Shown: one piece after another, positions 7,053 to 12,944 of the stretch
Numbering within the stretch: the stretch's first letter is position 1
Layout: each line of letters begins with the position of its first letter
From: Halovenus aranensis
GTDB taxonomy: Archaea; Halobacteriota; Halobacteria; Halobacteriales; Haloarculaceae
Assembly (NCBI RefSeq): GCF_900100385.1
Contig: NZ_FNFC01000003.1
Coordinates: forward strand, 1-64,000
Length of the DNA: 64,000 nucleotides
Direction of reading: 5' to 3'
The notes under the pieces: model-generated
Database searches by the model: none
The model's input: the letters and a program-made list of their open reading frames with translations, nothing else
Told to the model about the DNA's origin: nothing
Translations under genes and position numbers: made by a program

Positions 7053-9095
7053 TCACTCGTCGAGTCGCATGTCGCCGCCGGGGCTGTCCGAGATGTCGTC
7101 TTCCCAGTCCGCGTCGCCAGACTCGAATTCTTCTTTGAGCTGTGCGAACGTCGACCCGCCGCCGTCGTCGTCATCGTCATCGTCCCCGCCGTCGTCGTCT
7201 TCTTCGGTGTCCTCGTCTGTGTCATCTGATTCGTCATCGAAGAGGTCCTCATCTTCTGTGTCGTCGTCGAATAGTGTCTCGTCTGCAGAGTCGTCTTCGA
7301 AGAGGCTGTCATCGTCCAGCGAGTCGTCGTCGAACAGTCCGTCGTCATCGTCCTCTTCGACACTGAGGGACGTGATGTCGTCCTCCGGGGAGTCCGCTCC
7401 AGAGCCGTCGCCGTCGTCGAACCCACCGTCGAAGTCGTCGTTGTCCTCGTCGTCGAAGCTGATATCTGCGTCGTCAAGGCTCACCAGGTCGTCATCACTG
7501 CCGGGGTCGTCCTGAGCCACCGCTGTTGTCTCCTCGTCGTCGGACTCGGCCCAGTCGGCCTCACCGGACTCGAACTCGGATTTGAGGTCCTCGAAGGAGC
7601 TGTCGCCATCGTCGGCTGACTGGGAGACCGACGCGTCTGAGTCGGACGATTCGACAATCTGTTCGATTGGTTCGTCTTCGTCCTCGTCGTCGTCCTCGTC
7701 CCAGCCATCTCCCTCCTCGTACTCGGATTTGAGGTCGTCGAAGGAGGGTGAATCAGCCTGCGCGGTGACGCCCGAATCCGCGTCTGTGGGAGCTGTCTCT
7801 GCCGGAGAATCGTCTGGGTCGGCCACCGTGTCGGCGATACTGCTCGGGTCGGTCTCTGTCTCCTCGACAGGTTCCGACGCGGACTCTGAGGAGGGGTCGG
7901 GCGCAGTCTCGACAGTGTCGGCGGATTGGCTGTCGGTGGCGACCGCTGGTTCGCTGTCGGGGACAAGCGCGGGGTCGAGCGGCGTCGCGGCGTCTTCGAG
8001 TTTCCGCAGGGACGCCGGCAGACCGATGACCGACAGCGTTTCGCCGGGTTCGAGCACGTAGTCCCGGGGGGGCAGCGTCGTCGGTCCGTTCTCTTCGGGT
8101 GTGACAGCGGCGACGGCGACGGCAAGTGCGCCGACGGGCATCCCGTGGAGCGGACTCCCAGCCTCGACGGTGACAGAGGCATAGCTCTCGTCTGCGGCCC
8201 GGAGCAAGGAGGCAAACTCGCGTGCCGGGCGGTCTTCGACCGGTAACGTCACGAGTCGATAGGTCCGTGTCGGGTCGACTTTCGGCGTGTCGGCAGAGTT
8301 GATAGCAACTGTCACTACGTCACCCGACACGCCCCTGAGTTCGCCCGTAAGGACTCGGCGCATCGAGTCAGTCTCCCAAACCTGAACTACGTCGCCGGTA
8401 CTCGCGTCGAACGCAGGGTCCGCCCTGAGAGCGACAGCGTTGGTCGCAGACGGCAGTGTCGGACCGATGCCTGCGGCGCGACTCCCGACCGCCAGGTGGT
8501 CGACGGTGCCATCAGACGCGAGGTCGAGGTCGACAGTGCCGACACCGAAATCGGTCTTGAGCCGTGTCCGGATACGGCGGTCGAGTTCTGTGAGGGTCAG
8601 GTTTCGTGGGAAGACGAACTGACGGCCGGCAATCGCGTCGCGGGTTCGCTCAGAGACAGGGTCGTACCCGACGACATCATCGATTTCGTGGGGCATCGTC
8701 ACCGTGGTGACGCGACCGACTGTCTTGACTAGCCGCGACACCTCCTCGTCGACCGCCTCGCGTTCCCCGCCGTGAAGCACGTCTCTGGCAAACGCGTTGC
8801 CCCATCGCTGGCCGACAACTGCGCCGACTCCGCCGGAGAGGAACGCACCGACGTTGAACAGTGCGGTCTGGACGGTCCCCATATCACCTTCTATCACCTG
8901 CCCGAGGACCGACGTCGTGTTGAGATACGCCGCGACGCCGGCGAGGCCAGCGAGCACCGCAAGCCCGAGCGGAACCCGTTCGCGCGTAGCCCACCGGTAT
9001 CCAAGCGCGACCACCGCGGCCAGTGCCCCGGCGAGTAGTGCCAGCCCGAGTAACTCCGTCGCCGCCGTCACTATCTGGTCAGGTGTCGACGTCAT
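7053..9095 (-). CDS. Membrane protein with RCK_C (TrkA-C) domain and long acidic repeat tail
   Basis: 680 aa. Residues 8-100 hold three hydrophobic segments. A middle domain starting at VVGYDPVSERTRD contains FPRNLTLTELDRRIRTRL, and residues about 285-370 look like a TrkA-C/RCK_C ligand-binding domain (ALAVAVAAVTP..., LEPGETLSVIGLP). From about residue 375 the chain is disordered and very acidic, with three copies of a motif SFxDLKSEFESGxADW and a series of LFDDD blocks. It overlaps the upstream paralogue by ATGA (9092-9095), so the pair is co-translated. Probable role: membrane regulator of K+ flux sensing a ligand through RCK_C; this is inference from the domain and the channel gene opposite. 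Confidence 0.75.
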   Translation of the reverse strand: MTSTPDQIVTAATELLGLALLAGALAAVVALGYRWATRERVPLGLAVLAGLAGVAAYLNTTSVLGQVIEGDMGTVQTALFNVGAFLSGGVGAVVGQRWGNAFARDVLHGGEREAVDEEVSRLVKTVGRVTTVTMPHEIDDVVGYDPVSERTRDAIAGRQFVFPRNLTLTELDRRIRTRLKTDFGVGTVDLDLASDGTVDHLAVGSRAAGIGPTLPSATNAVALRADPAFDASTGDVVQVWETDSMRRVLTGELRGVSGDVVTVAINSADTPKVDPTRTYRLVTLPVEDRPAREFASLLRAADESYASVTVEAGSPLHGMPVGALAVAVAAVTPEENGPTTLPPRDYVLEPGETLSVIGLPASLRKLEDAATPLDPALVPDSEPAVATDSQSADTVETAPDPSSESASEPVEETETDPSSIADTVADPDDSPAETAPTDADSGVTAQADSPSFDDLKSEYEEGDGWDEDDDEDEDEPIEQIVESSDSDASVSQSADDGDSSFEDLKSEFESGEADWAESDDEETTAVAQDDPGSDDDLVSLDDADISFDDEDNDDFDGGFDDGDGSGADSPEDDITSLSVEEDDDDGLFDDDSLDDDSLFEDDSADETLFDDDTEDEDLFDDESDDTDEDTEEDDDGGDDDDDDDGGGSTFAQLKEEFESGDADWEDDISDSPGGDMRLDE
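7104..7151 (-). repeat. Coding repeat copy 3 of the acidic-tail motif
   Basis: Encodes TFAQLKEEFESGDADW near the C-terminus of the RCK_C protein. It matches the other two copies at F, LK, E, F/Y, E, G and W. The other copies are at 7551-7598 and 7701-7745. Confidence 0.85.
7551..7598 (-). repeat. Coding repeat copy 2 of the acidic-tail motif
   Basis: Encodes SFEDLKSEFESGEADW, the best-matching copy to the third. It is surrounded by low-complexity Asp/Ser sequence. Confidence 0.85.
7701..7745 (-). repeat. Coding repeat copy 1 of the acidic-tail motif
   Basis: Encodes SFDDLKSEYEEGDGW, one residue shorter than the other copies, followed by a run of Asp/Glu. Confidence 0.85.
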
Positions 9096-10339
9096 ATCGC
9101 CGACTCACCCGTCCGTGCGTCTGCGGCTTCGAATTCTTCGAGCGCGTCCCGTGGCCCGACCGCAAAGAGTTCGTCTCCGGCGTCGAGTGTGGTGTCGCCG
9201 TCCGGTGTCACGAGCCAGCCGTCCGATTTCCGGACCGCAAGCACCGAGAGACCGTAGGTTTCCTCGATGTCGATGCTCCCGAGCCGCCGGTTTGTCAACT
9301 CACCGTGTTGCCCGACGGCGACCCGCCGAAACCGGTTCTCCGCGCGTCGCAACATCGAGATAACCTCGAACTCGCGACGAGTTCCGCGGGGTTCGACCAC
9401 GACTTTCACTTCACTCGCCCGGAGTAACGGCTGCACGTCCGTCCGCCTGACCGCAACGGTGATGCGGCCCTCGCCCCCGCTTGTCGTTGGCTTCCGGACC
9501 GGTCGGGCAGACTCGTCGTCTGCCACGCGGTCGTTCGAGGAGGGGTCGATGTCTGGTGTGGAGTCGTTGACTGTGTCGGCCTGCGCGCTGACGACGATTC
9601 CCCGAACCTGTGCGTCGGGCGTAATGACGGTCACCTCGTCACCGTGTACCAGACCAGTCGGAATCAGCCCCGAAACCGACACTGCATGCCGGTTGTGGTC
9701 GACCCGTTTCGAGAGTCCGGAGAACGGCGGCGCGGCGACGACGGTCGCGCGACCCTGCTCGTCGACGGTGACCGCCACGTCACCGAGGTCGTATTCGGTC
9801 TGGAGGCGGTCCTCGACACGCCGTTCGAGCTCGCCAAGCCGGAGGTCTGCGGGTAGGTTCACCTCTGCGTTTCGGAGGCGCGCACGCAACTCCTCGGGTA
9901 ATGGCGGGTATCCCTCCATATCCGAGATCTCACCGCTCACTCGAACGCGGACCTCCTCGCCGCCGTTGACGAAATCTGCAAGCTCCCGCGAGAGCGTCTT
10001 GTCCCGAAGCTGAGACAGCGAGAGCCGTCGGGGGAAATCAGCGGCCATCTGGTCGCCCTTGCTGTGGGCGTACAGCGAGAGCATGCCGATAACGAGAATA
10101 GCCGTGACGATGCGAGGTGCGTTCGGCGCGGCGAGAACCGACTGGTCGGCGAGTGCCAGCAGACCGCCATTGACCCCGGCGAGCGCAATAGCCAGTATCG
10201 TCACACCGAATCCCGGTAGCGTCACCCCGGTCACGTACTTAAACGAGAATCCGAGACCCCACGAGACGAGCGCCGGGATGATTCCGACGAGTAGCCCCAG
10301 ATAGATGCCGAGTAGTATCTCCGCCGGAAACGATGCCAT
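9092..10339 (-). CDS. Membrane protein with RCK_C (TrkA-C) domain
   Basis: 415 aa paralogue of the next gene without the acidic tail. The N-terminus has three or four hydrophobic segments (AEILLGIYLGLLVGIIPALV..., VTILAIALAGVNGGLLALA, IVTAILVIGMLSLYAHS). The shared middle domain reads MEGYPPLPEELRARL with LPADLRLGELERRVEDRL, and the C-terminus is RCK_C-like (LGSIDIEETYGLSVLAVRKS..., LDAGDELFAVGP). ATG at 10339 is chosen over 10387 because a TATA element lies 25 nt upstream of it. Together with 7053-9095 it forms an operon facing the K+ channel gene. Confidence 0.75.
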   Translation of the reverse strand: MASFPAEILLGIYLGLLVGIIPALVSWGLGFSFKYVTGVTLPGFGVTILAIALAGVNGGLLALADQSVLAAPNAPRIVTAILVIGMLSLYAHSKGDQMAADFPRRLSLSQLRDKTLSRELADFVNGGEEVRVRVSGEISDMEGYPPLPEELRARLRNAEVNLPADLRLGELERRVEDRLQTEYDLGDVAVTVDEQGRATVVAAPPFSGLSKRVDHNRHAVSVSGLIPTGLVHGDEVTVITPDAQVRGIVVSAQADTVNDSTPDIDPSSNDRVADDESARPVRKPTTSGGEGRITVAVRRTDVQPLLRASEVKVVVEPRGTRREFEVISMLRRAENRFRRVAVGQHGELTNRRLGSIDIEETYGLSVLAVRKSDGWLVTPDGDTTLDAGDELFAVGPRDALEEFEAADARTGESAI

Positions 10340-10359
10340 ATGTAGTATCAGAGTACCGA

Positions 10360-10370
10360 CCCTAAAAGGG
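10360..10370 (-). promoter_or_regulatory. Palindromic TATA element for the RCK_C operon
   Basis: CCCTAAAAGGG reads as CCCTTTTAGGG on the minus strand and is centred 26 nt before the ATG at 10339. CCCT/AGGG arms around the TATA core could also be an operator. The 107-nt spacer (10340-10446) is shared with the divergent channel gene. Confidence 0.45.
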
Positions 10371-10446
10371 ATTTCTTCCGTTATCAAATATGTGTCTGTG
10401 GCTTCCGGGACAGTACGTTCAAGTCGTTGCCCCGCCAGGCACAGGT

Positions 10447-11604
10447 ATGGCAGACAGCACGAGACGGATACACCGGCTGGTCGGTGTGCGGGCAGCGGTT
10501 ACGCTCGCGGTCTCGTCTGCGCTGCTCTCGCTCGCGACGGGGCTTGCAAACATCACGACCGGTGTCGTTGTCGGCCCGCTCTCGTCGTACATCCCGGAGA
10601 TTGTCCAGCAGACGGCTGGCTTTACCGGCACACTGACAGGATTCGTTCTCCTGCTATTTTCCAGACAGCTTTACCGCCGGCTACGGGTCGGCTGGTACGG
10701 TACCGTCGTGTTGCTTCCGGTCGCGGCCATCCAGGGTATCGTCCAGGCGAGTGTCTACTCGCTTCCCCTAGTTATTCTCTCGTTGCTCGCATTGCCGATT
10801 GTCGCCGTCAACTACAGCCGATTCGACCGGCCGATTACGTTCTCGAACGCACAGATTGCCGCGGTACTCGCCCTCGTCGGAACGCTGGCCTACGGGACAG
10901 TCGGCTCGTTCACGCTACGCGAGGAGTTCGTCGAAATCGAGAGCGTCACCGACGCATTCTACTACACGATTGTGACTGCCAGTACCGTCGGCTACGGAGA
11001 TATCACGCCAACGTCCGAAGAGGCGACACTGTTCTCGGTGTCGCTGGTTGTCCTCGGGACTGTCAGCTTTGCGGTCGCGCTCGGTTCGGTCCTGGGGCCT
11101 GCCCTCGAAGCGAGATTCGAACGCGCACTCGGAACCATGACAGAGACAGAGTACGACTTGCTCGAGGACCACATCGTGGTACTCGGCTACGGCGAGTTGA
11201 CCGAACCACTTCTCGAAGAACTCAGCGACGTGCGATTTGTTGTCGTTACCGACGACGCCGAACAGGCACGCCGCCTCCGTGAGCGGGACGTGGGCGTCCA
11301 TATCGGTAATCCGAGCGACCAAGAGCCACTCGAGTCCGTCGCTATCGACCGGGCACGAGCGGTTATCGTCGCCACGAACAACGACGCAGAGGACGCACTC
11401 GCGATACTCACCGCACGGGAGCTCAATCCAGCGGCGCGCATCGTCGCCGGCGCTACCTCACGCGACAACGTCGACAAACTCCGGCGTGCAGGGGCTGACA
11501 CGGTGTTGAGTCCGGCCGTCATCGGCGGCCAGTTGCTCGTGCGGTCCGCACTCAGCGGCGAAGATGTCGAAGGCCTGACCGAAACGCTACTCGACGAGGG
11601 CTGA
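10447..11604 (+). CDS. Two-part potassium channel: pore domain plus cytoplasmic RCK (TrkA-N/C) domain
   Basis: 385 aa. Several hydrophobic helices (residues about 10-140) precede a pore loop with the K+ selectivity filter TVGYGD at residues 180-185, followed by an inner helix. From about residue 240 comes an RCK domain with a Rossmann start HIVVLGYGELTEPLLEEL, the acidic strand end VVTDD, and VIVATNNDAEDALAILTARELNP. The C-terminus keeps only a short stretch after VLSPAVIGGQLLV, so a full RCK_C domain seems missing; the two proteins opposite carry RCK_C. ATG at 10447 is preferred to an upstream in-frame start at 10390. Confidence 0.88.
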   Translation: MADSTRRIHRLVGVRAAVTLAVSSALLSLATGLANITTGVVVGPLSSYIPEIVQQTAGFTGTLTGFVLLLFSRQLYRRLRVGWYGTVVLLPVAAIQGIVQASVYSLPLVILSLLALPIVAVNYSRFDRPITFSNAQIAAVLALVGTLAYGTVGSFTLREEFVEIESVTDAFYYTIVTASTVGYGDITPTSEEATLFSVSLVVLGTVSFAVALGSVLGPALEARFERALGTMTETEYDLLEDHIVVLGYGELTEPLLEELSDVRFVVVTDDAEQARRLRERDVGVHIGNPSDQEPLESVAIDRARAVIVATNNDAEDALAILTARELNPAARIVAGATSRDNVDKLRRAGADTVLSPAVIGGQLLVRSALSGEDVEGLTETLLDEG

Positions 11605-11612
11605 GAGCCGAC

Positions 11613-11759
11613 TCAGCGGCGACTACTTTCGAGAGTCGCGGCGACTAGCTCCGCGGCTTCCTCTGCTGCACGGCGACGGGCCTCGGTTTCGGGCCCGGCG
11701 TCTGCGTGGCCGTCGTCGGGCAGATGCGTCGCGTGGTGGGGACGTGGGCGAGTCATCAT
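11613..11759 (-). CDS. 48-aa charged microprotein
   Basis: Reads MMTRPRPHHATHLPDDGHAD, then a predicted amphipathic helix rich in Arg/Ala/Glu (TEARRRAAEEAAELVAATLE), ending SSRR. Codon third positions are G/C and a TATA element lies about 28 nt upstream, so it is probably a real leaderless gene. No known family is recognised. It sits tail-to-tail with the K+ channel gene, 8 nt away. Confidence 0.6.
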   Translation of the reverse strand: MMTRPRPHHATHLPDDGHADAGPETEARRRAAEEAAELVAATLESSRR

Positions 11760-11784
11760 CGTCGTTACAGCCTATGCACTGGTG

Positions 11785-11792
11785 TATAATAG
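11785..11792 (-). promoter_or_regulatory. TATA box for the 48-aa microprotein gene
   Basis: Minus strand TATTATAC lies 26-33 nt before the ATG at 11759, the correct distance for a leaderless haloarchaeal promoter. Confidence 0.5.
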
Positions 11793-11820
11793 TGCCCCAG
11801 GACAGTTGTCTCCAGTTCGG

Positions 11821-11848
11821 TCAGTTTTGCCCGCACTGACTGTTTTTG
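11821..11848 (+). terminator. Hairpin followed by T-run on the + strand
   Basis: GTCAGT (11821-11826) pairs with ACTGAC (11836-11841) and is followed by TGTTTTT. It could stop transcripts reading through from the K+ channel gene toward hemB, which is on the other strand. The rest of 11793-11948 shows no gene. Confidence 0.4.
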
Positions 11849-11948
11849 CTGATTTCACGCGACCACAGGTCTCCGTGACCACTATCCAAGACGGATTGTA
11901 ACCGAACGAAACGTTTTACAGACAATTCTAAAAGGATAACAGGAACGC

Positions 11949-12944
11949 TCAGAGTTGTTCGGCGACGGTCTCGGCGAAGTACGTGAGGATGAGGTCGGCC
12001 CCCGCCCGTTTGATAGAGAGCAGCGATTCGTGGGCGACCTCGTCGAGGTCCAGCCAGCCCTGCTCGGCGGCGGCGTGTAACATCGCGTACTCGCCGGAAA
12101 CGTTGTATGCCGCGACAGGGTGGTCGAACTCGCGGCGAGCGTCGGCAATAACGTCGAGATACGGGAGCGCAGGCTTGACCATCAACACGTCTGCGCCCTG
12201 TTCGACGTCCAGACTCACTTCACGGGAGGCCTCTCGGGCGTTGGCGGGGTCCATCTGGTAGTGGCGGCGGTCACCGAAAGCGGGTGCGCCGTCGGCCGCG
12301 TCCCGAAAGGGCCCGTAGAACGCGGATTCGTATTTCGCCGCGTAGCTCATAATCGGAATCTGCTCGAATCCGGCACCGTCCAGAGACGTCCGTATCGCAC
12401 CGACCATGCCGTCCATCATGCCGGACGGTGCGACCATGTCTGCCCCAGCCTCGGCGTGGCTGCGTGCAATCTTTTCGAGGAGGGCAAGCGTCTCGTCGTT
12501 GTCGACGGTCACGTGTGCGTCTTCGGGCGCGCTCGCTTCGAGGACACCACAGTGGCCGTGGCTCGTATACTCACAGAGACAGACATCGGTGAGGACGTAG
12601 GCATCGGTCTCGTCGGCGATACGCCTGGTCGCGCGCTGGATGATTCCGTCGTCGGCCCAGGCACGCGACCCGGTCTCGTCTTTCTCCTCGGGGATGCCAA
12701 ACAGGATGACCGCCTCGACACCGGTCTCCCGGACCTCCTCGACACGGGCGACAGCGTCGTCGAGCGGGACGCGCTCGTGGCCCGGCATCGACTCGATTGG
12801 CTGGCGCTCCTCGGTCGTCGCGTCGATAAAGACCGGCGCGATGAGGTCCCGCGGCGAGAGCGTGGTCTCGCTGACGAGCGGTCTGATACCGTCGGTTCGC
12901 AGTCGCCGTGGTCGTTTGCCGCGCTGGTGGTGCTCGTTGTCCAT
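11949..12944 (-). CDS. hemB: Porphobilinogen synthase (delta-aminolevulinic acid dehydratase)
   Basis: 331 aa; condenses two 5-aminolevulinate molecules to porphobilinogen in heme, siroheme and cobalamin synthesis. The zinc-binding loop [14 protein letters not shown] carries the Cys ligands of the Zn-dependent type. The two active-site lysines are in [13 protein letters not shown] and [14 protein letters not shown]. Full family length with no gap. It starts 46 nt downstream of the transducer stop on the same strand and may share its transcript. Confidence 0.97.

Follow-up and report, generated by a model that had tools for sequence, protein, structure and literature searches.

Haloarchaea hold molar K+ inside the cell, and the control of their K+ channels receives little attention in the open-licence (CC) literature that we searched. 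In the stretch of Halovenus aranensis DNA analysed here (the window; 64,000 nucleotides), a K+ channel gene, K, faces a pair of genes, B and C, for predicted membrane proteins. The locus raises two questions: that is, whether B and C regulate K and, if so, whether they supply in trans an RCK_C half that K lacks.

The channel and the end of its chain

K (10447..11604, + strand) encodes a predicted Kch-type K+ channel of 385 aa. The longest open reading frame opens at 10390, conservation across homologs begins at about 10447, and the start codon is probably 10447, where conservation sets in. Pfam profile searches with the K protein detect Ion_trans_2 (2.7e-14) and TrkA_N (4.1e-28, whole profile covered, 1-116/116) and detect no TrkA_C. 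The TVGYGD selectivity filter (10984..11001, + strand) is found in 67/67 panel homologs, and the RCK_N domain (TrkA_N; 11173..11514, + strand) leaves 29 residues to the end of the chain. A preliminary description of the locus had reported a channel with this filter and an RCK_N-type domain, ending soon after that domain and lacking a full RCK_C, and the results bear it out for K, for its homologs and for the DNA downstream. The homologs of K, 69 homologous ORFs from a panel of about 60 genera, typically have about 19-55 residues beyond the end of RCK_N, the exceptions being a broken copy and an ORF whose low-complexity tail runs to 100 residues; a significant RCK_C match occurs in 0/69, and all except the one with the 100-residue tail are too short to hold an RCK_C. 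A frameshifted or lost RCK_C behind K was ruled out, there being no RCK_C match in any of the six frames of 11401-12100.

By its profile matches, K is a channel of the Kch type: a pore domain with a K+ filter, then RCK_N, without RCK_C. Among curated models, that of E. coli Kch (PRK10537/NF007828; RCK structure 1id1) matches K best; K 82-395 aligns with model positions 76-385 of 403 (1.3e-60), and in both proteins RCK_N lies directly behind the pore, with no room for RCK_C. The score of K against the Kch equivalog NF007828, 205.5 bits, is below the 425-bit cut-off, making K a relative of Kch, not an equivalog. Because the Kch model shares the layout of K, a channel without RCK_C represents a known type and is not by itself a deficit. 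An accessory gene pair for Kch was not found in the open-licence (CC) literature searched.

K is the sole Ion_trans_2 channel of the Halovenus aranensis genome. Apart from K, the only protein in the genome with a strong RCK_N and without RCK_C is a TrkA_N protein (L157:430-1884, - strand), the remainder of which we take to be DHH-like. The genome encodes another odd RCK protein (L135:886-2091, - strand), in which two TrkA_C domains alternate with stretches that we assume to be PhoU-like.

The paired membrane proteins and their RCK_C domains

B (9092..10339, - strand) encodes a 415-aa membrane protein with, according to profiles and a predicted model, three TM helices, an alpha/beta domain, a beta-barrel and an RCK_C. 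The longest start option for B is at 10387, conservation begins at about 10339, and 10339 is probably the start codon. The 107 bp between B and K (10340..10446) form a divergent intergenic region that presumably holds a shared promoter region. C (7053..9095, - strand) encodes a 680-aa protein of the same architecture with an added acidic tail, and the stop codon of B and the start codon of C overlap in an ATGA (9092..9095, - strand). Comparison of the B and C profiles gives 338 aligned columns at 99.7% probability (hhalign), by which B and C are paralogs. Against a Pfam gathering score of 27 bits, TrkA_C is matched at 50.3 bits in B (2.3e-13) and at 28.6 bits in C (1.3e-6), and the match recurs in 11/11 B-family and 11/11 C-family members. 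The preliminary description had placed RCK_C in both membrane proteins and not in the channel, which is what profile searches with the three proteins find. It had also described the pair as co-translated membrane proteins that share a domain and end in RCK_C; the shared domain, the RCK_C matches and the gene overlap stand, and the ending requires correction for C, which in this genome ends in the acidic tail.

By sequence scan, B has three hydrophobic segments, and two stand out clearly in C. The predicted models, the confidence of which is low to moderate (mean pLDDT 61 for B and 71 for C), are alike for the two proteins: three long N-terminal helices, an alpha/beta domain, a beta-barrel, a helix and RCK_C. 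The beta-barrel of C resembles domain 1B of SMUBP-2 helicases (3.9e-5), with Pfam PF21138 matched in 5/11 C-family members. The structure-search lists for B and C were filled by RCK_C matches, and the fold of the alpha/beta domain was therefore barely probed. In NCBIfam, C is without a family and B reaches no family's cut-off; the nearest named record to B, from Halovenus salina, is 85% identical, and public annotation of B-C pairs in plasmid records reads 'TrkA C-terminal domain-containing protein'.

The acidic low-complexity tail of C (7053..7979, - strand) comprises about 300 aa beyond RCK_C, is missing in relatives such as Halorientalis, and contains three copies of a motif, (S/T)F-x-x-LK-x-E-(F/Y)-x-x-G, that within the panel occurs in Halovenus only. 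A similar single copy, SSFEDLKAEYESGEADW, occurs in another acidic protein of the same genome (L181:586-2307, + strand), presumably an ArlD/E archaellum protein.

RCK_C is the part of B and C that has firm structural relatives (MthK, BusR, KtrA and KhtT), and the top Foldseek match of both proteins is KhtT. By profile and alignment, the RCK_C of B (9125..9325, - strand) retains the pocket helix, and the RCK_C of C (7992..8180, - strand) is without it. In BusR, the c-di-AMP pocket of RCK_C is hydrophobic, includes Pro181, and has a polar rim formed by Asn157 and His160 (PMC8517857). The helix of this pocket is absent in 59/59 C homologs, as are BusR positions 158 and 160. B homologs keep the helix and most of the hydrophobic positions, with Pro181 replaced by Gly in 47/59 and His160 by an acidic residue in 44/59. 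The alignments thus suggest that the RCK_C of B, with its ligand groove kept, is the likelier sensor and that the RCK_C of C, with its pocket helix lost, is likelier to be structural. A single diadenylate cyclase gene is present in the genome, and DacZ and c-di-AMP have been studied in Haloferax (PMC6741144), and for these reasons c-di-AMP stays a possible ligand of B; it is not a supported one, the pocket as aligned being not clearly of the c-di-AMP type. We do not put c-di-AMP forward as an established ligand, the pocket being incomplete.

Gene order and co-occurrence across Halobacteria

We surveyed 292 Halobacteria genomes, with thresholds of 1e-60 for K and 1e-30 for B and with a divergent B2 type included in the counts for B. 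K has a strong match in 286/292 genomes and B is present in about 246, leaving 46/292 without B. Co-occurrence of the two genes is one-sided: about 40 of the 286 K-bearing genomes have no B, no genome among the 292 has B without K, and all six genomes without K (6/292) are also without B (hypergeometric P 1.1e-5, with relatedness ignored and two of the six being congeneric). We conclude that K and B-C show the pattern of a channel with an accessory unit, not of a channel with an indispensable missing half, and that K does not need B-C.

Gene order is conserved as well, well beyond the single genome in which the preliminary description had noted it. K is adjacent to and divergent from B in 69/75 genomes for which both positions were listed (median gap 110 bp) and is divergent from B in 55/56 panel loci carrying both genes; in the panel exception (G007), and in a congeneric genome (G001), K, B and C lie in that order on one strand. 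B and C are rarely apart: C follows B in 74/76 cases, and in the remaining two a search finds C further downstream of B. No arrangement is commoner than adjacency of K to B-C, which occurs across most of the haloarchaeal families sampled. On a tree of K, the adjacency label must change 7 times (well-supported branches force at least 5 of these), compared with 12.2 for shuffled labels, indicating that the module has come apart on several occasions. In a 120-genome draw from the phylum, no B was found outside Halobacteria. The survey led us to reject chance as the source of the gene order.

In one genome (G135; L178:5992-7203 and the DNA following it), all that is left of B beside an intact K is a match of 62 residues, possibly a loss in progress.

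According to one alternative, K is an ordinary Kch channel that happens to neighbour TrkA_C proteins and has no functional link to them. Channels of this type without RCK_C are already known, and RCK_C domains are common in the genome (16 TrkA_C matches), as this alternative would have it; however, order and orientation are conserved over much of the class despite the breakups, and K and B co-occur one-sidedly. With the conservation survey against it, we consider this alternative highly improbable.

Paralogous B-C pairs lie apart from K as well. One family (f3) has several genomes in which divergent B2-C2 pairs (L162, L167, L169, L170 and L179) lie far from K, in a conserved run with genes for a MinD/KaiC-like ATPase and two tetrapyrrole methylases. 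In another genome (G033; L171:5983-12064), a B-C pair adjoins a Na_H_Exchanger gene, a gene for a 170-aa TrkA_C protein (a KhtU/KhtT-like arrangement) and a gene for a double-RCK protein. That double-RCK protein has a pore-like loop, TTAGFGGD, and K sits elsewhere in the same genome. Four plasmids (L185, L186, L187 and L188) carry B-C pairs with no K nearby, and on pNVE500 the pair lies near antiporters, a CBS protein and a TVGYGD channel without an RCK domain. A protein without RCK_C, which we take to resemble the N-terminal part of KhtT, is also encoded near the pNVE500 pair. By their occurrence away from K, B-C pairs resemble a regulatory cassette linked to K+, with K as the commonest partner, and not a fixed half of K.

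These pairs bear on a second alternative, in which B-C is an independent membrane sensor, linked to K+ or to osmolarity, that serves other transporters, and K is merely its co-promoted neighbour. The second and plasmid-borne pairs without K, some of them beside antiporters, would fit such a sensor, as would the genomes that hold K without B. Set against it are the lack of any B-bearing genome without K and the prevalence, across most families sampled, of adjacency to K; we regard this alternative as possible, if somewhat unlikely.

Proposed regulation of the channel and known RCK systems

The reading that we prefer, to which we assign a probability of about 0.5, is that K is a Kch-type channel and that B and C are the two paralogous subunits of an auxiliary membrane regulator that modulates K. 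According to this reading, K would make the pore, and its RCK_N domains would dimerise through their conserved last helix. B and C would be made together and would most likely form a B:C heteromer, with three anchoring helices in each subunit and RCK_C facing the cytoplasm. A ligand bound to B-C, or the ion conditions there, would then change the state of the RCK_N ring of K and, through it, K+ flux. The tie between K and B-C is favoured by the conserved divergent order, by the one-strand K-B-C arrangement and by the finding that B never occurs without K; a K+-linked role is favoured by the paralogous pairs near other K+ genes (in G033 and on pNVE500); and the reading as a whole is favoured by the standing of K as the sole Ion_trans_2 channel and, the DHH protein aside, the sole strong RCK_N without RCK_C. 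Against regulation of K by B-C count the genomes with K and no B and the pairs far from K, and divergent adjacency can mean shared regulation alone.

The preliminary description had gone further, proposing that B and C supply the missing half of K in trans. In its strict form, this requires direct docking of the two RCK_C domains, that of B and that of C, onto the final RCK_N helix of K, so as to complete the RCK domains of K and rebuild an MthK-like gating ring. MthK carries RCK_N and RCK_C on one chain, and K, a channel chain without RCK_C, is thus not of the MthK type; but K matches MthK residues 24-257 (about 1e-33, PDB search), the RCK_C of either membrane protein matches residues of about 255-339 (Z up to 11.8), and together they cover MthK once. 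K ends where the RCK_C of MthK begins, and B and C supply exactly that portion. MthK residues D184, E210 and E212, which we take to be Ca2+ residues, align with A, G and T in K, as read from the K-MthK alignment. A two-chain RCK ring has a precedent in the two-subunit TrkA ring of T. maritima, TM1088A:TM1088B, in which TM1088A has RCK_N only (PMC4380455), and this precedent, with the division of MthK between K and B/C, makes the split attractive. However, TM1088B, unlike B and C, has an RCK_N of its own; K covers nearly the whole of the Kch model, itself without RCK_C; about 40 genomes retain K and have no B-C; B-C pairs occur elsewhere; and regulation by RCK_C can do without the completion of an RCK_N (KhtT, PMC10117811; BusR, PMC8517857). 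The link between K and B-C that the proposal contained therefore stands, on gene order, the one-strand case and the absence of B without K, and the same cannot be said of the split, which we consider unlikely. Completion of the gating ring of K in trans by a membrane-anchored B:C heteromer, with one RCK_C sensing and one degenerate, is likewise doubtful. If it holds, the locus would encode a split-RCK channel conserved in haloarchaea, and the open-licence literature searched describes nothing of the kind.

The domain types, and regulation in trans by RCK_C, are already known. Their combination here, in which two membrane paralogs bearing RCK_C, conserved as a pair, accompany a Kch-type channel, is apparently undescribed: the preliminary description had known of no account of such a three-part unit, and we found none in the open-licence (CC) literature. 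The trio offers a testable candidate for an accessory subunit of an archaeal K+ channel and, in the RCK_C of B, a domain whose ligand could be sought, with c-di-AMP among the candidates even if the pocket is not clearly suited to it.

Besides Kch and MthK, two known systems come close to the trio. TM1088A and TM1088B resemble K and B-C in that RCK parts are split between chains, one of which has RCK_N only, and in that the TM1088 genes overlap; they differ in that both chains are cytosolic, with no channel domain, and in that TM1088B has RCK_N and RCK_C, whereas B and C have no RCK_N. KhtT, a cytosolic, c-di-AMP-binding subunit (PMC10117811) of the K+/H+ antiporter KhtTU, brings RCK_C to a separate K+ transport protein as a regulatory subunit, as B and C would. 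It differs from B and C in being small, cytosolic and beside KhtU, whereas B and C are predicted membrane paralogs with extra domains, one of them, C, without the pocket helix, and their neighbour is a channel.
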